From contig OZ004594.1 of the NCBI GenBank assembly GCA_963924555.1, forward strand, positions 6,045,563 through 6,109,562: a stretch of 64,000 nucleotides of DNA, in the 5' to 3' direction. A program made the position numbers and the translations under genes. The notes beneath the pieces were generated by a model that was not told the DNA's origin, did not search any database, and saw nothing but the letters and a program-made list of their open reading frames with translations. Below are positions 12,658 through 38,900 of the stretch, piece after piece. Numbering within the stretch: the first letter of the stretch is position 1; each line of letters begins with the position of its first letter. Source of the DNA: Crambe crambe. Its lineage: Eukaryota; Porifera; Demospongiae; Poecilosclerida; Crambeidae.

Positions 12658-13018
12658 ATAAACTCTACCAAAATTTAATAGCTAATTGTTGTTTCCTGCT
12701 CAAATTATTGGATAAGGGAGCAAGGGTGGGGGGCTTGGGGGCTAAGGCCCCCCAGAATTTTTGAATCGTATAGCTTATTAGAATGAAACTATGTATTGCC
12801 AAATGTTTAGTATTACATTAGATGAACTCATTTTGCAATTGTAAGTAAAGGAATGGTCAGTTTTGTTCTTGTGTACATGTAGTGTTTAATGGCCACTAAT
12901 TTGAGCTTGTACAGTACATGTTTTAGTACTAATTAATTGATTGTGCATGTACAGTACTGTTTGAATAGTGATAATTATAATCACCTCATATTACACCAGA
13001 AGCAATCTCAGAACACCT
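12658..13018. other. RINT1 upstream region
   Basis: Upstream of the RINT1 start. It contains a G/C-rich stretch ('agggtggggggcttgggggc') at about 12720 that resembles a repeat end. No gene seen. Confidence 0.4.
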
Positions 13019-13128
13019 TAGTCTGGTGAACCATCCCCGGCCACTTCCACAGCACTGGATGTATCTGCGTGCTGGTGATGCAATACATCCAGTGCTGCGG
13101 AAGTGGCCGGGGATGGTTCACCAGACTA
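13019..13128. mobile_element. foldback MITE, 110 bp, with 9-bp target duplication
   Basis: Near-perfect palindrome with termini 'tagtctggtgaaccatcccc' and its reverse complement; each arm is about 48 bp. The 9-bp direct repeat agaacacct flanks it at 13010-13018 and 13129-13137. A second copy of the same family lies at 45729-45850. A 9-bp duplication is what MULE/Mutator-type transposases make; an 8-bp hAT reading is also possible. Confidence 0.92.
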
Positions 13129-13957
13129 AGAACACCTGAGATTCAAAATTCCCCCTAGATAATGCAGTTAGCCCCCCCAGTTGAAAAAACTTATCTACAC
13201 CCTTGGGAGGGAGGCTATTTTTTATACTAGTGCTATATCTAGCAATAATATTTGAAGCAAGTGAGCTTTTAGACTCCGACTTGTACCCCCTTAAATTTTT
13301 GCTATTGGAGGTTCCAACCAAGCAGCTACAATCTTAGGAAGGTGTAATATGTCACATACAACTGACAATCAGCTTGCTTAGCAGATAATAATAAACGAGT
13401 AGGCCTAGGTATGCAGTGGCCAAATCAGTTGACAATGAACGTTGGCCTAATGGACAAGCACCATAGAAACCTTATGTAAATCCACCGCATGCATTATCTT
13501 AGCCTCGTGCCCCAGGCCTTTTTTTTTCTTTCACAGGTTTTTTATAGGTGTGACTGCTGCAGTTCTTGACATATCATGTAGCTTTTGTAGCCTCGTTCCC
13601 AGGCCTTCCTCTCTCACTTGAAGTCTTTCCAGAAGAAAAAGACTCAATTCCCACCTCATGAATACCCCGTACAGCTACAGTATCTACTGGCAGCATAGAT
13701 ATATGAGCCGTACCGGTGTCATAAAGTTTTGGGGACCCCGTAGTTTTAGGGACCCCCCATCCCTAAATCTACCGTAGATATGGGGACTCCCACATAGATA
13801 TAGGGACCCCATCCCAAATGTATGTTTATACAAGATATCTCATCCACAAATCTACATAGACATCAGTAATAGTTAAATCCACACCTTTTAACACTTTTAT
13901 ATTAGATCTTGGCCTTAGGGTGGCTGCTCAAAGTATGGTAGCTGAGTCTAACTCATT

Positions 13958-14000
13958 ATTATTATTATTATTAGTAGTAGTAGTAGTAGTAGTAGTAGTA
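13958..14000. repeat. (ATT)n/(AGT)n microsatellite
   Basis: ATT repeats pass into AGT repeats. The AGT tract resumes at 14495-14512 on the other side of the inserted element. Confidence 0.9.
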
Positions 14001-14495
14001 CAGGCTCGTAGCCAGAGTTTTGCAAGGGGGGGTTCTAAAATATCTGCGCAGTAGCGTGGAAAAATTTTTGGCATAACCACGCCCATTTTCGTATAATCAC
14101 ACCCTCTTTTGATAAAAACAATGACTTAGCTAGCAGCTGCAATGCAGGATATGAAGGTAGGGAAAGTATGAAGATGAGTAGATGATGAAGATGGTACAAC
14201 TTCTTCACAATCTGCTAGCTAGCTATACCTGTACAGTTTTTACAGCAAGATTTATACTTTATAGTCATAGTCTCAGGCACTAAGCCACTAACTGCTCAGT
14301 AGGGCTGAGTTATAAGTAAAAATGACCTTTTCTGGACGAAAATAGCTAATAAGTCTCACTTGTTTCTCTCTCGCTTAGAGTGATTACACGAACGAACCCG
14401 AGTACGTGCATAGCACGCGCTCGCGCTTAAAATTTTTATTCATTTTGAAAAGGTGGTTCGACCGAACCACCCGAACCACCCCTGGTTACGCCCAT
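14001..14495. mobile_element. third-level insertion inside the AGT microsatellite
   Basis: Sequence between the two halves of an AGT repeat, starting 'caggctcgtagccagag' and ending 'cccctggttacgcccatg'. Both ends show the 'gtagccag...'/'...ctggttac' pattern as rough inverted repeats, with G-rich (caaggggggg) and C-rich (accacccgaaccacccc) subtermini. No coding frame. Probably a small non-autonomous DNA element; the target duplication cannot be read because the target is itself a repeat. Confidence 0.65.
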
Positions 14496-14513
14496 GTAGT
14501 AGTAGTAGTAGTG

Positions 14514-14625
14514 CTATTTGGATAAAATAGGGTTCTGAAATAGTCCATGCATGGTTGCCAAAATTGTGCGAGCGAAGCAAGTACAATTTGGCAACCAAAG
14601 GGCAATTTCAGAACCAAAATAGCAC
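14514..14625. repeat. hairpin-forming inverted repeat
   Basis: 'ggttgccaaaattgt' pairs with 'acaatttggcaacc' around a 15-20 bp centre. Outer arms 'aaaatagggttctgaaat' and 'atttcagaaccaaaatag' also pair. Part of the 1.57-kb element. Confidence 0.8.
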
Positions 14626-15387
14626 AACTAACCCACCTATCATAGGCTAATAGTTATACAAATAGCCAAAGCCAAAGCTCTTCAAATAGCCAACACTATT
14701 TCAAGCAAGTAGCCCACAATAACTGCATCATGATAACTGAGGTATTATGGAGGCGAGCCAATAACTGCATCACTAGCTACCAAGGATTTCCAAAAGTACT
14801 GAACAATCGCACTCTCTGATATAAAAGCTGCAAGAGCTGGGGGTCCCTAGACATAGGTGTAGTGCTGGGGCAGGTCAGGCATTTATACAAGCCAACATAT
14901 CTTCCACATCCTGATGGCCTCACTTCAGGGAGAGTCTAGCTACAACATTAATGCAGTTTGCATAACTTCAGTAATTGGTAATTTTGATAGCTACCGACAC
15001 CTCCAGATTCTTCATACCACTCAGGTTACAGTTAATGGGGGAGAGCCTAGCTGACCAGTGGGAGTATTTGCCTGACCAATGCACAAAACACTGCTAGTTA
15101 CACCTCCGCTAGTCTGCTAGACAAAACAGGCTGGGGTCCCCATATCTACATAGGGGTCCCCAAATCTACCGTAGATATGGGGACGGGGGTCCCCATATCT
15201 ACGTAGATTTAGGGACGGGGATCCCCATATCTGCATAGATTTGGGGACGGGGATCCCTAAAATAGGGGGTCCCCGAAACTTTATGACACCGGGATTGGAA
15301 ACGTAATACTTTTGAAATTAATATTAGGCGCGTTTCGCTATTAACTCGGTAGTGCAGGAAATTAACCCCCTACTCACCGTATAACCA

Positions 15388-16749
15388 ATGGCGCGTAAGG
15401 CGCGGGACCGGCAGCAGGACTTGCAGCAAGCTAGAGAACTGGATTCGTGGATGCTAAAGTCCCTGTGTACAGTAGGTATGATAGCATGATAGCTATAGGC
15501 TAGCTATAATTAGCCTAATAGCTAAGTAACCGCCTGACTTGTTCAAGGTATGTTCAAGGACTGTGGTTTTTATACTGTCAACGTTTTTGAGAGTCTTGTT
15601 GGGTTTCAAACACATGTATCTATGTACGTTTAAATTTGCTGTATGATTGAATTAGTGCAATACAAGGGTTACATTCTTTCCAAACCTCTGAGCTTATTAT
15701 TATTATTTCTAGCTAGCTAGATATTGTGCTAAAATTAGAATGCAATACAAGCTAGGTACCTAATAGTAAATAATTTAATCTTATAGATCATGGCAGCCAG
15801 TACCCCAATGATTGAAAGGGTCATTAAAGCAGCTGGGAAGAATGAAATAATGTCCCTTTTAATTGCAAGTAGCAACAAAAAAGTTGTGGACAAATTATTT
15901 TGTGAATTAATTTCTGCTATCAAGACATGTATAATGGAGTTGGGAAGAGTAAGTATGGCACATGCAAGAGAAAGGGCTATAAAAAAATTTCATCAGCTCA
16001 GACTGAACACGCTACCTGAAATATGGAACAAAAGCTTAGCTGAGCTTGAAATTACAAGCACTCCAGTGTTACTTCAATCAATTAACAGACTAATTTTTAA
16101 TGAAATCCTAACTGAACATTTTTCCACTAATCATGCATCATCGGCTATGTCATCAAGACCATTATCAGTGCATATGTCTTCGGAAGAAGAAAATGCTATT
16201 AGATATGCAAGTGGATTTGTCACAATGCGATTGAAGAAAATTTACGAACAGGAACATACCAACAAAGCCAGGCAGTTTGTAGAATGCCTCGCTAACATGT
16301 CAGTTGAGGGTGATGGAAGTAATTTTTATGAATATACTAAAATTTGGATAAGTACTATAAACCGAGGTGGCCTATTTGAAATCAATGACAGCTGTTTCCT
16401 CTTTTTTCGTGCTCTTGAGCTTAAAATACAAGAGTGTCTTCCTCATCATCTAAAAGGTGGAACCATGTCAAAGGAGCAACTTTTCACCCTCATCATGGAT
16501 GATGAAGATGTCAATTTTCTCTGGTCAATGCTTTCCATAAACATCGATTCCAAGTATTCTGATGATCTTTTACGCACAATAGTGGAAAAGTGGGTCACTC
16601 TTAGAGGATTCACCATAACATCTTCTTGGTTACAAGAATATAAGGATATTAAAGCAAAGCAAGTAAGTAAGAAAAAAGCATTGAGAAAGGAATTAGCCAA
16701 AAAAAAGTCCAAGAAAGGATCAACAGACTTGGACTCCAGTGATGATTAA
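15388..16749 (+). CDS. uncharacterised companion protein of the P-like transposon
   Basis: Two exons: 15388-15471 (MARKARDRQQDLQQARELD...) with donor GTAGGT, then 15787-16749 after acceptor 'cttatag'. Joined in phase 0 they give about 348 residues; without exon 1 the downstream ATG at 15790 gives 319. The protein is mostly alpha-helical by composition. Its central part (exon-2 residues about 125-265) has a patterned region: ENAIRYASGFV, then EYTKIWISTINRGGLFEIND, CFLFFRALELK, MDDEDVNFLWSML, and WVTLRGFTITSSWLQEYK. The C-terminus is a Lys-rich basic tail followed by an acidic Asp/Ser end. No catalytic motif, signal peptide or TM is visible. It is in the same element as the transposase and ends 31 bp from the transposase stop on the opposite strand, so a role in transposition, DNA targeting or regulation is inferred only from position. 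I do not recognise the family. Confidence 0.75.
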
Positions 16750-16779
16750 CAAAATATGTATTGTAGCTAGCTATATCAG

Positions 16780-17109
16780 TCATTTATTATCTTGATTATT
16801 CAACTTTTTTGCTTGTCTTCGTCTCTTTGGAAGAGGTGTATCATCAATCACCTCCTTGTTGTGCAAGAGCCGTCTTTTCCGACTACTATTACCTCTAACA
16901 GGTAGCAGAGAAACAGATCCTTGTACTCTTAGAGATTGAGTAGACTCAAGGCATGCCTGTACAGATGGATTTTCAGAGCGGCCACCTCTTCCACGAACTT
17001 GGCCAAAGAAATTCTCTAAGGGGTCTTGTGAAAAACATTCACTGAGAATATACTTCTCTGGATATCCAGGAAGAGAGAGCAGATATTTAGATACTTCAAC
17101 GAATGATTT

Positions 17110-17179
<70 letters not shown>

Positions 17180-19498
17180 ATGAGTGTGTATGCATGCATG
17201 CTATCTGCAAAATGTACCTGTTATTCGTAGGCCTTCTAGAGTTTCTGTGCTGAGACACATAGTTGCTTTGTAACCATCTGATACTTCAGAATTAGACTCA
17301 ATGCTATCTTCCCATTCCTTCAAGTAGTCCAGAAAATCCTCCTTGAGCCACTACAAAAATACCACTTTGCCATCCATTAATTACAATATTAAATTGCAGT
17401 ACAGTACCTTAAATCTCTCGTCTGAAGTGTCAGTATAAGGTTTTAAATTTGGTTTCCTCCTCTTGATGTACTCCAGTTTGTTCCGACCATTTAAACAATC
17501 AAATAATTTGTCAAATATGCGCACAAAGCGCTCAGTCTCAGATGTCTTTGGATCACCATAGAATTTAAGTGCATTCCCAACACTCTCACTCAATACCTAC
17601 AATTAGAATTCACTCATTGTATTCTACACCCTATTTAAACATTTGTAGCTTATACCTGCACAGCAAGATCCACCCGCATCCTTGAGTATAACGTGAGTTT
17701 GATATGCTCTAGTGACAGCTTTGGCAATAGATATAGGCCATGTGATCTGTTCCCCATTGCAATCTTTGCATGATACAGCTTACACAGGTGTTGCCAACTG
17801 ATTTCCTTTCCATTGATCTAAAAATTATGCATGTGATTTACTTGCACTATATTGCTAACTGCTTTCTTACCCACAGGTTGCGTGTATTGCCATGGCCTGA
17901 AGAGTGAGACCAGCAATTTCTTGTCGTTTTGAGCAAGTGAGGTACATCAGACATGAAATAAACATATCTCTCATCGGAGGCATATGGATTCTTGGTTTTA
18001 TAACACAAGCCATCATCTTTGTCACTCTGGTGCATGCGAAAGAATTTTCTGTTCGGTGATGCACCGTCAGCAGTCACTACGATTACTTTAAATCCACATT
18101 TTTCAAGTCTTTCAATAGCTTCCCATACTATTAAAAAAAGGTAATCACTTTTGATTGTAGTGGTTGCAAAAGTTGCATATGGGAAATGTAGGTGGAAAAA
18201 AATGCCACGAATCATTAGTGTCAGTACATGGGTAGCAACATGTGGTGTTTTTTCATTACCAATATCTCTCTCCAATTGATCAAGATGATCACCAATATCT
18301 CCCATGTTGACAAAACCTATCACTTTCGTCTGATGTTTGTTGTACACGAGGCTTTCCTTCACCTTCATCTCATCCAAAACCAATGTCACATGTCTCTTCC
18401 ACTCAGGTAATTCGGATAATTTTGCCTCTTCCTCCAACATTTGGTCAACTTCTTCAGAAAATCCTGGTGCACTCTTGATATAATGGGTGTAATCACGCAA
18501 GGTTCTTTCCGATGGAAGCTTGACCATGCCTGATGTTCGTAATGCATGATATGCTGCTGTGGATAGGAATTTCAGATTGAGGCACCATCTCACCATCATC
18601 GGGTGCCAACGCATCTGACGAGAATTCGTCAATCTGGCCACCTTCAATTGTTCTTCCCAAAATAGCCTGCGAAATGATCCTTTCGGATATATATCATTAA
18701 TTTTGTGTTTATTTTCTTCCATTATATTGTGGAGGTCAGAGTGTAATTCTTGATCCACAATAACACTATTTCTTTCATACGATTGTTTTATTTTCTTTCT
18801 TAGCCTCTTGAGATTGTATTTTGAATTACTAGCTTTAGATTGAAGATTTTTCAACTTTTTCAACTTTTCTGCTGAACTAAGGTAACGATTGTTGCAATAT
18901 TTAGATTTTGTTTTCTTTTTTTTAAGAATCGACTATACATCGATCTTAAATTTGATCGGAATTTCTGACAAATATTGCATTTACCATCACCCACAATTAA
19001 TGTACAATCTGTAGTTCGAACTGTTGAGTTAAATACTTTACCGTTATACCAAACAGAGAACCCTTGAATCACCTCTGCTACCAGCGATCCGGCACTTGTT
19101 CTTATTTTGCCTTCATAAGTTGGGGACAAGATCATATCAATGAATTTCTTGTCTGGATTTCCTGGGCATAATTTTGAATTACTGAGAATGTGCGTAACAT
19201 TTACTATTAATTCTTTTTTGTTGAGAAGCTTGGGTAGTGCCAACATTGTGTGGTTGATTTGTCGTCCATGAATGCATATCTCCCATGAAAAATCATTATG
19301 AATCGTGAGCTCATATGCATTGGATGATTTGCAACGAAAAGACATACTACCTTTCGATTGATCAGTTAAATCAACCCATCCATCTATATCTTCCCTTACT
19401 GCCAGGTATAATTGGTTCATGTCTAATTGTGCCCTCTTAGCAGCCTGTTTCTTCCTCTCTCCATTCTTGAAATGAGTAAATCTTTTCTTCCGAGGCAT
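16780..19498 (-). CDS. P-element/THAP9-like transposase, with a -1 frame change
   Basis: DNA-mediated transposase of the P superfamily. Minus-strand exons: 19498-17871 (containing the frame change), 17817-17656, 17596-17408, 17350-17218 and 17111-16780. Family marks: the Cys pair CNIC and the RYLSSAEKLKKLKN coiled start; LVLDEMKVKESLVYNKHQTKVIGFVN (first Asp of the RNase H-like core); VIVVTADGASPNRKFF (second Asp); VYFMSDVPHLLKTTRN (third acidic block); and near the C-terminus LSECFSQDPLENFFGQVRG then GGRSENPSV. No N-terminal THAP zinc finger is visible before the MPRKKRF start. The 0 frame runs to a stop at about 18860, but the conserved protein continues in the -1 frame after a run of eight T (A in mRNA) at 18916-18923. 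This is either a one-base deletion, a homopolymer sequencing error, or a programmed shift at the A-AAA-AAA heptamer there. Confidence 0.88.
17115..17179. repeat. (TG)n(AG)n compound microsatellite
   Basis: About 40 bp of TG then about 22 bp of AG, in the last intron of the transposase. On the coding strand the TC/AC run forms the polypyrimidine-like stretch before the acceptor. Confidence 0.95.
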
Positions 19499-20190
19499 TC
19501 TGCATGCATGTTACAGTACCATGTCAGCTAGTGCTACACTTTGTGATATAGCTATATTCATCACAAAGTGTATAGCTATTAATTTGGTTTGGGAATGTGG
19601 GACTCAATATTATGCCTTAAGCTATAGAGCTATAGTGTAGCTAGCTGTAACTTTATCCCTGCATAAGTCGGATGCTAAACAGCTTGCATTCAGCAAAATA
19701 GCACATTTAGTTACTTTAATAGGTAAGCAATTGCTGCTAATCAGAAAACAAGTCCTATCCTTTAACACACAGTTGCTTATGGTACACAAAATTGAGCCTT
19801 TGAATTACAAAGATGAGGGCAGTAGATATAAACTATTCATTATTTAATTCTAGTGACAATGGATTTAGTTGCACATTTGGTAGCTTTACATTATCCACTA
19901 TATGCTAACTCTGCATTATATAGCACTTACTTGCAAATGGTACACAAGATAGATTCAGGCAAGGAGCTGAGAGTGTTTCTTATAAATTTCTCCCCTAAAG
20001 AGATTTGAACGAATTCTGTTTGGGCTAAACTGTAGTACCGTTCTCGCGGCTTGTTTTACAATAGTCGCAAAGATTTTCTGATATGTTTGCGGTCCTTTGT
20101 ACTCGGGAAGACAGTAACTCATGCGCGTAACTAAGGTGAAACGAGCCTGTACTTCAATAATTATACTAGCCCTACGGGCGCACGTGACCC
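19499..20190. other. right non-coding part of the P-like element
   Basis: Upstream of the transposase start, so it should hold its promoter. No other gene seen. Confidence 0.5.
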
Positions 20191-20303
20191 CGTTTCCAAT
20201 CCCGGTACGGTTCATATATCTATGCTGGCAGCTACACTGGCAGTCGTGTCTTCAGTCAGCTTCAGTGGAGAAGAGTTTATATCAATGCACGAAGAGTTGT
20301 TAG

Positions 20304-30657: not shown

Positions 30658-32755
30658 TCACAAATTTGATATTTTCAAGTGAGCCAAGAATAAGTTCAAT
30701 GCTGAACCTTGACTTCTGGCATCCATACACGTGGGCATATTAACTCCCAAACACTTTTCAGGATAATCAGGACAACAACTTCCCATACTGTTGTTATCAG
30801 TGAAATTAGGATTGCATCCATCAAAGCACCAACAATACCCTCCACCTCGAATGGCTTGAGCATGAGCCTTCTTACAAAATCCTTGGCAGCTGAGATAGTC
30901 ACTATCCTGGACACATTCCTCTGCATAGTCCAGACAGCAGTCAAGATGTTTGGTACAATTAGAGTCACAGTAACAAACTCCATGCTTTAGTTTCTGTGGT
31001 TTATGTGACCCACAGATGCCTTTGCAACTTGCATGTCCGAGAGGACGCTTAACTCCAACATTGAAATCAGAATCAGTTTGATTGCATATATGATTGGTAC
31101 GATTGTAAGACCAAATCCAGCAGTGATATTGATCTGTAGAGAATAAGTATTTTGAGCACAGTTTGTTCTTGGAGCATTTCTTTTCACATTTATCTTCAGT
31201 ATACATTGGACCATCCCAGAGCTGGGTGCCAGCACCAACACAACGCAAGTAAGTCTTATGGAGGTAAAGTCCAGAATCTGGTGGCAAGATCTGCCTGGTT
31301 TTCTCTTCTCCCCACCACCAATGAAACTTTGGAAAGTTGGATTTACTTTTAACACCAGCATCACAGGCATCTTCCTCTTTAAAAGGTGGCCACACAGCTG
31401 ACCTGGCCCAAGCAGCATCACTTGTATTCTGTACAAACATTTTAATCTTTGCTAACATGTTGCCATTGAGTGCTTTTTTCGCAGATAATATATCTGAGAA
31501 GTAGGCCAAGTGGAGCATGAATATGCCATTGAAAGAATACCAATCACCTCCAGGGTCAGCTCCACCCACACACTGACTTCTGAAGGTTTGTCCACTTCTA
31601 GGCTCATCGATAAGAATACCATCAGTCGTAGTATAGTTCTGTAAGACCGCGTTGAGTAGTTTTACACCTGTATCCAAGTACACCTCATTTGCTGTTAAGG
31701 AATAAAGATAAGCACTTGAACTCAAAAGCAGTCCTTGGTTGTAGGATGTGCCGGACAACTTTGAGCTGTAGCATTTCTTAAGGAGAATTTTAGTGGAGGA
31801 ATTGCAACAGAGCTCAGGCATAGCTCCAGTTGAAACCAAATTTTTCTCTGTCAGTAGACCAGTACCATTGTTAAAACTGTAGATCCAATTCCAGATTTTT
31901 TCAGCATGCTTAATATAATCACTATCCTTTGGGTACATGAAGGCCAATTTCGATGAGAAGTGCAACATTTCCATTATTGTGACTGAATCCTTGAATTGTT
32001 GGCCAGGCCATGTGCTCCACCAAAAACCACCACATGGGTCATCCCAGCCATTTTCCCAAGCCCAGTTATAGAGATCTATGGAACGGTTCAGCCATTTCTC
32101 ATCCTGCAGCCAGTGCACAAGATATATTATGCCATGTCTGTAAATAGCATGCTTATTGCTATACTCTTTATGCATATCTAAAATGGGCATGTGGTTATAG
32201 TATATGGTACTACAGCCTGTTTAATATAGTCAAGTGGATTGCATGCGTGAAGGTGCATCGACTATTATTATCGGATAATGTTGATGAGGTTTACTAACTC
32301 ACCTTGAGCCATTCATACACTCGAAGGTATGCAATTCCATACCAGGCAAAATCATCAATGAATGTTTTTCCATAGTAATTAGCATTGTATGGTGAATGAT
32401 TAAAAATAGTCTCTGGTACTTGAGAGTTCTTTGTTGTGTTGCTGTAGATCCCATAAGTGGCCAATGATTCAATTGCAACTGCATCCCACCATCGATAGCA
32501 ATTCAGACATGAAGTCTTATCATAACAGCTACACTTCTTCCAGTTGCTAGACCCTTGGCCTCCTATCTGTCCACATGCAAAGAAGAACATGATATCTTTT
32601 TCCTTTGGGTCATTGTTCCAATAATATTCTATCAAGCCGTTTAGAGTTTGATTGACTCGCACCTCTGCATTAGCAGACCTTTCACCTCCTCCATTAACGT
32701 TGCAAGTTAGAAGTAGAACGAAAATAGCAGTCACCACAGGCACTAGGATCTTCAT
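30658..32755 (-). CDS. secreted GH76-like glycosidase with two somatomedin-B domains
   Basis: Two exons: 32755-32299 and 32177-30658. A donor GTTAGT one codon past the more obvious GTGAGT gives the right phase and reads EWLKVNMHKEY across the junction. N-terminal signal peptide (MKILVPVVTAIFVLLLTC). The GH76 (alpha/alpha)6 fold, seen in endo-alpha-1,6-mannanases of bacteria and fungi, is recognised from CYRWWDAVAIESL, TFIDDFAWYGIAYLRVYEWL (the Asp-Asp pair is the catalytic dyad of GH76), DPCGGFWWS and SYNQGLLLSSSAYLYSLT. After about residue 470 there is a Cys-rich link (RCVGAGTQLWDG...CEKKCSKNKLCSKYLF, apple/PAN-like), then two somatomedin-B domains: CKGICGSH...CYCDSNCTKHLDCCLDYAEEC and CQGFCKKA...CWCFDGCNP...SCCPDYPEKC. 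Many N-glycosylation sites. It is probably secreted and may cleave mannans of microbes or matrix; substrate is not shown by sequence. Confidence 0.88.
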
Positions 32756-35946: not shown

Positions 35947-38900
35947 ATGGATTTTGATCAGCTTCTTCAGCGAGCAGCCACTAATCAAGTAGCTGCTCAA
36001 AGAACTGTGAGTGAGTAGACGGGTCTCAGTAATCCTTGCTAGTTAGCCAAAAAAGTGGGAGTGGTGCGGTAACCCGTGAAGTCGTTTTACTAGACTATGA
36101 CTGTCTTTGTTTTGCTGTTCATATATTAGTGTGTGGTAATGTGATAGTGTGCGACCTGAATGAAGGAAAATGGGTCCGAGAATTATATCAGTTTGACACA
36201 GGACAAATATCCAGGCAAAACTCCAGCCATTTTCCTATTGGTCTGTTAAAATTCAGTGGTGAAATGTCAGGTCAACTGCTAATTGGCCCACTTTAGTGCT
36301 ATTTGAATGTAAGAACTTCTGGTCCTAACCAAGTGCCGCACCCTCAATATATTGTGGTGCTTTGATTTGAATGGAGTGACAGTTGCAGGGCTCTTATTTC
36401 ACTTAGTGCCCACTGCTTTCACTTAGTGCCCATTGTCCATGGCAGCGGGCAAGCTCACTCAGTGCTCTGCCTCTAAGAAGCATTATGATTGTTCCCCCTC
36501 AATCTTTAAATTTCAAATAGCATCATGAGGGAACTGTAATCTATACTTGTTCTGAACTTCTGATGGTAGTTTTTATAAGGCTCTAGTTCATTGAGAATTG
36601 TTGGTAAGAGCTCTGTACCACAATGCTTGTTAAGGGTTACAGTGAATCAAAGTTTTTAAAGTGCTTAGGGGATGACTGTTGTGTGTGTGTGTGCAGTATG
36701 AACGTCAACGAGTGGCCAAAGAAGATGAGAGGAAGCAGTTGGAGTTGAAGGGGGAAGAATTGCGGAGGAAAGCTGCTACTCATCTCAAGCAAGTCAAGGA
36801 GCGTGCTCATAAGGAAAAGATGAAATATAAAGGATTAGTCAACCCGACTCCCAGAAACTGTTAGTCCATCCATAGTGTGGGAAAAATACCTCCCAGTGTA
36901 CCTTAGTCAATGTCCCAGGGTACCTTAGCCAGTGTCCCAGAGTACCTTATCCAGTGTCCCAGAGTACCTTATTCAGTGTCCCAGAGTACCTTATCCAGTG
37001 TCCCAGAGTACCTTATCCAGTGTCCCAGAGTACCTTAGTCAGTGTCCCTGAGTGTGGGGACAATACCCCCAGTGTGGGAACAATACCTTAGCGAAGTGTG
37101 AGCCTGTCAGTCCTAGAGTGCTTTAATTAATCTATAGCAATATCCGAATCATGATTTGAATACATTAATACACACTGCAGAAGTATCTGGTTCTCTACAT
37201 GTTTTAAAGCTACCTCTTCACAGTTACTAGAGTGGGTATTTCAGCCATAGCTTAGAAAGCAGAAATACTGTGTAGGCTAGGCTGGAAAGGAATACTGACG
37301 ACCCTTACCCAAAAAGTGCCTACAATGATGGTGACCCTTACCAAATGTTCTAATATTGTTAGGTTAGTAGGTTAGTGTGTCTTCATTTCTTCTACAAGGT
37401 GTTTTCTACTTGGTATGTGGTTTCCCTTGAAAATAGGAAATGTATGTTTTTGTTCTTCAGGTAAACCATTCCCTCAAGTCCGTCCTTCTCCTGTCACCAT
37501 CACGCCCTCCCCCGATCCCAAACCACACCCACCATATCAGTCCTCTAATAAGAGTAGCAGAGATAAACAGCATTCAAGCAACAGAACTAGCAAATCACCA
37601 GCACCATCATCACCAAAAACAACTCTAAGTCACAAACAAGCCACATCTACCAATACAAACACCAAGAAAGGCAAACATAAACAAATTTCAATACACCAGC
37701 AAATCAAAGGATCAGACTTGAAAGTACCACAAGGGGCCAAAAAAAAGTCCCGCTCTCTCTCTCCTCTCATGGTCTCCGCCTCAAAACGACCCCCAACTGC
37801 CTCCACTTCTTCTAAACTAAAAACTTCTAGCAAACCGTCTGCCAACTTCAAAGACTTGATGAAGCTAGCCCAACAAAACTCTACTGCAGATTCCAGGACA
37901 CCATCACGACCACAAGAGGTGAAGTCTAAAGGTTTATCTTCATCTGGTCCCTCGTCCAGAGATTCCTCACCACTAGGCAAGTCTCTAGTGGAGCGGAGTA
38001 GAGCGAGTCACTCTGCAACTGTGCAAGCCAAAATTGCCAAAGAAAAGTCTGTCAATAAACTTACTGACAATGTGAAAAGTCATTCCAGGAGTGAGAAAGA
38101 TGGCAGTAGTTCTGGTAGGAAGAAGGTTGGTGTTCAACAAGTGGGGAAGCTTCCTATTACAACTTCATCTGAGCTAATTCGCCGTCCACTCAGAGAGTTG
38201 GGTGACACACCCACCTCCAGGAAAGGGGTGGGGCCAAATCTAGGTAGGTAACTTCATGCACATAATAAATGGCCTATGCTCCATGCACATAGTAAATGAT
38301 CTATGCTCCATGCACAATGACATAATAAATGGCCCATGCTCTATGCACATAGTAAATGGCCCATGCTCTATGCACATAGTAAATGGCCCATGCTCTATGC
38401 ACATAGTAAATGGCCCATGCTCTATGCACGTAGTAAATGGCCCATGCTCTATGCACGTAGTAAATGGCCCATGCTCTATGCATGTAGTAAATGGCCCATG
38501 CTCTATGCACGTAGTAAATGGCCCATGCTCTATGCACGTAGTAAATGGCCCATGCTCTATGCACATAGTAAATGGCCCATGCTCTATGCACATAGTAAAT
38601 GCCCTATGCTCCATGCACATGGTGAATGGCCTATGCTCCATGCACATAGTAAATGGCCCATGCTCCATGCATATATAGTAAATGGCCTATACTCAATAAA
38701 TGGCCTATGCTCCATGCACATAGTAAATAAACGGCCTATGCTCCATGCACATAGTAAACGGCCTATGGTCCATGCACATAGTAAACACTCCATGCACATA
38801 GTAAATGAGCTTGCTGTAGGACTGATATTGAGTAAGAGCATGATCTTAGTTCTCATCTTGAGTGTAGTCAAAGAATGAGATTGATGGAGATTGTCATAGG

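Follow-up and report, generated by a model that had tools for sequence, protein, structure and literature searches.

P-type transposases have so far been understood as single multidomain proteins, and a locus in the sponge Crambe crambe raises the question of whether such an enzyme can be divided between two genes. The locus lies in a stretch of 64,000 nucleotides of contig OZ004594.1 (hereafter the window), where a P-like DNA transposon carries a second gene in addition to that for the transposase. The initial annotation had seen in its product a candidate accessory, targeting or repressor factor. For such a factor of unrelated origin there is no support; the predicted structure, and more weakly the sequence, instead favours the C-terminal domain (CTD) of the transposase itself. 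We consider it likely that the element belongs to a lineage of the P superfamily in which the transposase is split over two convergent genes, with the CTD detached. The features are listed in Table 1.

Table 1. Features of the P-like transposon, in window coordinates (TIR, terminal inverted repeat; TSD, target-site duplication)
Feature	Position	Strand	Remarks
P-like DNA transposon	13694..20224	.	TIR and TSD located by script; near-identical copies elsewhere have other TSDs
Left TIR, outer part	13694..13716	+	Rest at 15293-15303, beyond the nested insert
Nested element, 1,572 bp	13717..15288	.	Inserted in CCGG of the left TIR, which it splits
Exon 1 of the initial annotation	15388..15471	+	Not supported
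Second gene; its 319-aa product is predicted to be all-helical and proposed as the detached CTD subunit	15790..16749	+
Helical N-terminus of the second protein	15790..16152	+	Conserved in the family
Region with the predicted fold of the Drosophila P transposase CTD	16168..16641	+
Lys/Arg-rich tip of the final long helix	16633..16716	+	Positional counterpart of the fly basic helix; putative equivalent
Gene for the P-type transposase, intron-bearing and frame-broken in the window copy	16780..19498	-	Ends 77 residues beyond the catalytic Glu
RNase H, C-terminal part (PF21789)	16960..17034	-	E 1.4e-8; catalytic Glu in QDPLE
GTP-binding insertion domain, part (PF21788)	17471..17596	-	E 1.1e-7
RNase H, N-terminal part (PF21787)	18036..18470	-	E 3.7e-27; two catalytic Asp and the D..H motif
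Right TIR (CATAGATATATGA...)	20191..20224	-	Matches the left TIR

Both genes lie between the TIRs, as initially annotated. The TIRs are 34 bp long, begin with CATAGATATATGA... and agree at 33 of 34 positions, and the 7-bp sequence CTGGCAG was found by script outside both ends (13687-13693 and 20225-20231). Without its nested insert, on which the initial annotation was silent, the transposon measures about 4.95 kb. The whole stretch 15388-16749, used as a query, was recovered at eight loci including the window with 99-100% identity, and a ninth locus holds bases 20-1362 of it. Nine other copies of the element carry the second gene, with 1 to 5 differences from the window's gene per 954-957 compared bases, and a further partial copy differs at 2 of 699 bases. 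The TSD was 7 bp long in all six window-family copies tested (of 11 fetched), and its sequence was different in each of them (the window copy and five other copies with complete ends).

The second gene had been described as having two exons and about 348 residues. Its main open reading frame (ORF), at 15787-16749 on the forward strand, is indeed open over 320 codons, and the protein ends in the Lys-rich and then short acidic tail that had been noted. The 28-residue exon 1 fared differently: no upstream match at 12 loci beat shuffled peptides, and the best was equalled by 29 of 200 shuffles. These loci represent 10 different second genes, since L024 and L052 are the same place, as are L021 and L054. 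In other members of the family the N-terminus aligns to the ATG at 15790, and two copies (L047 and L048) have an insertion inside the exon-1 stretch. With no counterpart of exon 1 upstream of the genes tested, the two-exon model is not supported, and a protein of 319 amino acids starting at this ATG appears to be the better gene model. The tail-to-tail arrangement was confirmed, with 30 bp (16750-16779) rather than 31 bp between the stop codons, that of the transposase being at 16780 on the reverse strand. The last exon was read in nine other copies of the family; in eight of them the transposase stops five codons earlier than in the window.

The distribution of this gene pair was surveyed in the 143-Mb genome, whose genes contain introns. 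The searches scored the best candidates only, and all locus counts are therefore lower bounds. With the second protein as query, at least 128 matches were obtained, which merged into at least 120 loci with identities down to 23%; the relatives at 23-48% identity are spread throughout the genome, many with open frames. A convergent P-type RNase H match was present within 6 kb at 85 of these loci, whereas random placement gave a mean of 2.1 and a maximum of 6 pairings in any orientation (200 draws). The remaining 35 comprised four with a same-strand partner and 31 with none. Three more queries raised the number of second-gene loci to at least 182 (merged by hand), 93 of them paired. Seen from the transposase side, 92 of at least 146 RNase H loci were paired with a second gene, and 52 of 66 when only matches of at least 60 bits were counted.

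Four families beyond that of the window were fetched whole (L052, L053, L054 and L055). In four families in all, down to 27% identity, the gene pair is enclosed by TIRs and flanked by target duplications. The TIRs of L052, L054 and L055 begin with CATAGATA, and the TSDs are 8, 7 and 7 bp long, respectively; in L053 both genes are present, and neither a TIR nor a target duplication was found. Divergence of the second gene parallels that of the transposase (r 0.92; 7 of 720 permutations) across the six families in which the C-terminal RNase H exon could be read. A conserved two-gene P-like lineage, as suggested by the initial annotation, thus exists, and the second gene is part of the element and not a host gene sitting beside a transposon. 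Among the matches listed in open-access literature searches aimed at such an element, none described a P-like transposon with two genes.

Many decayed second-gene copies have no listed P-type RNase H match nearby. Five of them, for example, have equal scores and equal stop counts (C1:2817829, C3:4483226, C9:1627876, C15:3916313 and C18:1504491), as if a non-autonomous form had spread after breakage of the gene.

D(2)H is given as the DDE RNase H signature of the P superfamily in excerpts of PMC8230255. This signature is present in the transposase, whose motifs and matches to PF21787 and PF21789 are those of the superfamily. PF21787 also scored above the cut-off in L052, L053, L054 and L055, and PF21788 did so in the window and in L055, with 20.7 bits against a cut-off of 24.8 in L053. 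The Pfam match to a helix-turn-helix stayed below the cut-off. The genome gave 30 THAP matches, all more than 8.9 kb away from the nearest P-type RNase H match, and no THAP was detected in four transposase ORFs (that of L053 starting late) or in the N-terminal ORF of the window. As no THAP was found, the element, judged from its sequence, belongs to the P superfamily through its catalytic protein but is not a canonical P/THAP9 element. At the N-terminus of the transposase a conserved C-x8-C-x2-C cluster was observed (Cys 198, 207 and 210; residues 198-210 of the L044 ORF), which is invariant in four families; in this transposase without THAP it is possibly a different zinc-binding motif. A (TG)n(AG)n microsatellite at 17115-17180, of different length in different copies, adjoins the last transposase exon; in L052 the motif scan did not find this exon.

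In the window the second gene is open while the transposase is shifted, as had been pointed out. The frame break falls at a mononucleotide run of varying length among the 10 copies compared, and the RNase H frame extends over 547 amino acids or more in 5 of 11 family copies, against 8 of 11 with a second gene of 319-320 amino acids. Since the run varies in length and long open frames exist, the break says little about selection. Separate selection and host use, at which the initial annotation had hinted, are unsupported: near-identical copies lie in different target duplications, and the divergence of one gene is correlated with that of the other between families. The difference between 5 and 8 copies is weak evidence for separate selection.

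To what, then, does the second protein correspond? Structure prediction, a check that had been proposed at the outset, gave an all but wholly helical protein with a long Lys-rich helix at its end and the fold of the fly P transposase CTD (6p5a, residues 617-734). When the predicted fold was compared with known ones, this CTD was the best match, and the next entry was 3.8 Z units lower. In six families the transposase frames, with 3' ends predicted from DNA, appear to end 68-77 residues past the catalytic Glu; the L030 and L031 families were not readable to the end. A CTD profile applied to the window and 16 loci matched only second-gene ORFs or their remnants and never the transposase. With none visible in the transposase itself, the second protein was the one place where this domain was found. 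Together these results, the structural ones more than those from sequence, point to the second protein being the C-terminal domain of the P-type transposase itself.

Three results weigh against this assignment. The best sequence-profile match among 177,635 sequences is a P-type CTD with an E value of only 0.13, a full-length profile of the second protein retrieved nothing at E 10, and Foldseek returned nothing significant. They fit a reading in which an accessory or targeting protein arose independently and its helical bundle resembles the CTD by chance; such bundles match easily, and maize MuDR offers a precedent in its convergent second gene, of unknown function in excerpts of PMC3440606. 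We regard this origin as quite unlikely, since fold and profile both select, as best match, the one domain that the partner enzyme appears to be without, and the next fold follows at a wide distance. The Pfam CTD model PF12596 gave no match here and was also silent in every control genome, and no known counterpart was found for the N-terminal helical part. A captured or neighbouring host gene, for which no supporting point was found, is highly improbable: near-identical copies have different target duplications around them, TIRs enclose both genes in four families, and the loci number at least 120.

A descendant of the CTD, produced free of the catalytic domains, could also act as a regulator, sitting at the CTD site or on the ends of the element and thereby limiting transposition. 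Truncated products of the fly P element are repressors according to excerpts of PMC7776569, and a separate gene would permit separate control. This role seems unlikely, however. In the fly 66-kDa repressor it is the C-terminal third that is lost, while the DNA-binding N-terminal part is still there, which is the opposite arrangement; the second gene is retained alongside the transposase in many families, and without it the enzyme would have no visible CTD.

For the split transposase that we favour, the following mechanism is proposed. Protein one would comprise a non-THAP N-terminus, a helix-turn-helix (the match below the cut-off), the DDE RNase H and the GTP-binding insertion, and would end at the position of the disordered linker of the fly transposase. 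The CTD could have been cut free because it sits on this linker in the fly enzyme. Protein two would be a free-standing CTD extended at its N-terminus by a conserved helical part that may aid docking. It may dock between two catalytic subunits, with the RNase H domain of the first on one side and the GTP-binding domain of the second on the other, hold the looped transposon end and push its Lys-rich helix toward the target DNA; the basic helix of the fly CTD reaches target DNA in the account excerpted from PMC7776569. In this way it would perform in trans the task that falls to the tethered CTD of the fly enzyme, and transposition would require both proteins. We infer common descent of the second protein with the CTD, physical assembly of the two proteins, a need for both in transposition and the DNA contacts. 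On the stronger claim, that of an obligate two-subunit eukaryotic cut-and-paste transposase with its DNA-contacting CTD in a second gene and a new N-terminal docking part replacing the covalent linker, we are evenly divided.

Several known systems share parts of this arrangement. The Drosophila P transposase has the same DDE RNase H with its D..H motif, GTP-binding insertion, helix-turn-helix (a match below the cut-off here) and CTD fold, carried with a THAP domain on one polypeptide with a tethered CTD, and makes 8-bp TSDs (6p5a; excerpts of PMC7776569). In contrast, no THAP was found here, the CTD-like domain is in a second convergent gene, and the TSD is 7 bp in three families and 8 bp in one. 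The TIR start CAT is common to the fly P element and the element here. Zebrafish Pdre2/THAP9 also has a P-type transposase and a TIR beginning with CATA (CATACCTGTCAAC), but is described, in excerpts of PMC10983969, with a single THAP9-like gene containing THAP and CTD, a 13-bp TIR and an 8-bp TSD. Maize MuDR likewise has two convergent genes inside TIRs (mudrA and mudrB), one of them the transposase; it belongs to another superfamily, and excerpts of PMC3440606 and PMC3276141 report mudrB only from Zea. Unlike mudrB, the second protein here looks like part of the transposase and is present in several families. In PIF/Harbinger elements the other ORF encodes a Myb-like DNA-binding protein, whereas the second protein here is CTD-like. 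These are also cut-and-paste elements with two ORFs, as stated in an excerpt of PMC5543537.

If the CTD acts in trans, the domain logic of the enzyme (GTP, looped transposon end, target DNA) could be taken apart and tested in mixtures of two proteins, and control of transposition through two proteins would offer a handle for regulation. With two subunits, the CTD subunit could be swapped between families or could alone set the choice of target. The arrangement also suggests that a second half may have been overlooked where P-like elements were annotated in other genomes.

Some further features of the region were recorded. CCGG is doubled around the nested insert (13713-13716 and 15289-15292), and the left TIRs of copies L040, L043, L044, L046 and L049 do not contain this insert. 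Its ends read TGTCATAAAG.../...CTTTATGACA, and a similar insert in L047 occupies another CCGG, inside the stretch proposed as exon 1, where L048 carries a different insert. Elements with the ends TGTCATAAAG/CTTTATGACA are apparently CCGG-targeting. Elsewhere in the window, an ORF of 520 aa (30658-32220) resembles, by eye, a secreted carbohydrate-active protein with Cys-rich repeats, and another (38321-38878) is a tandem peptide repeat of the SKWPMLYAH kind. A long, near-perfect inverted repeat at about 13010-13125, also noted by eye, could be a hairpin or a small palindromic element.
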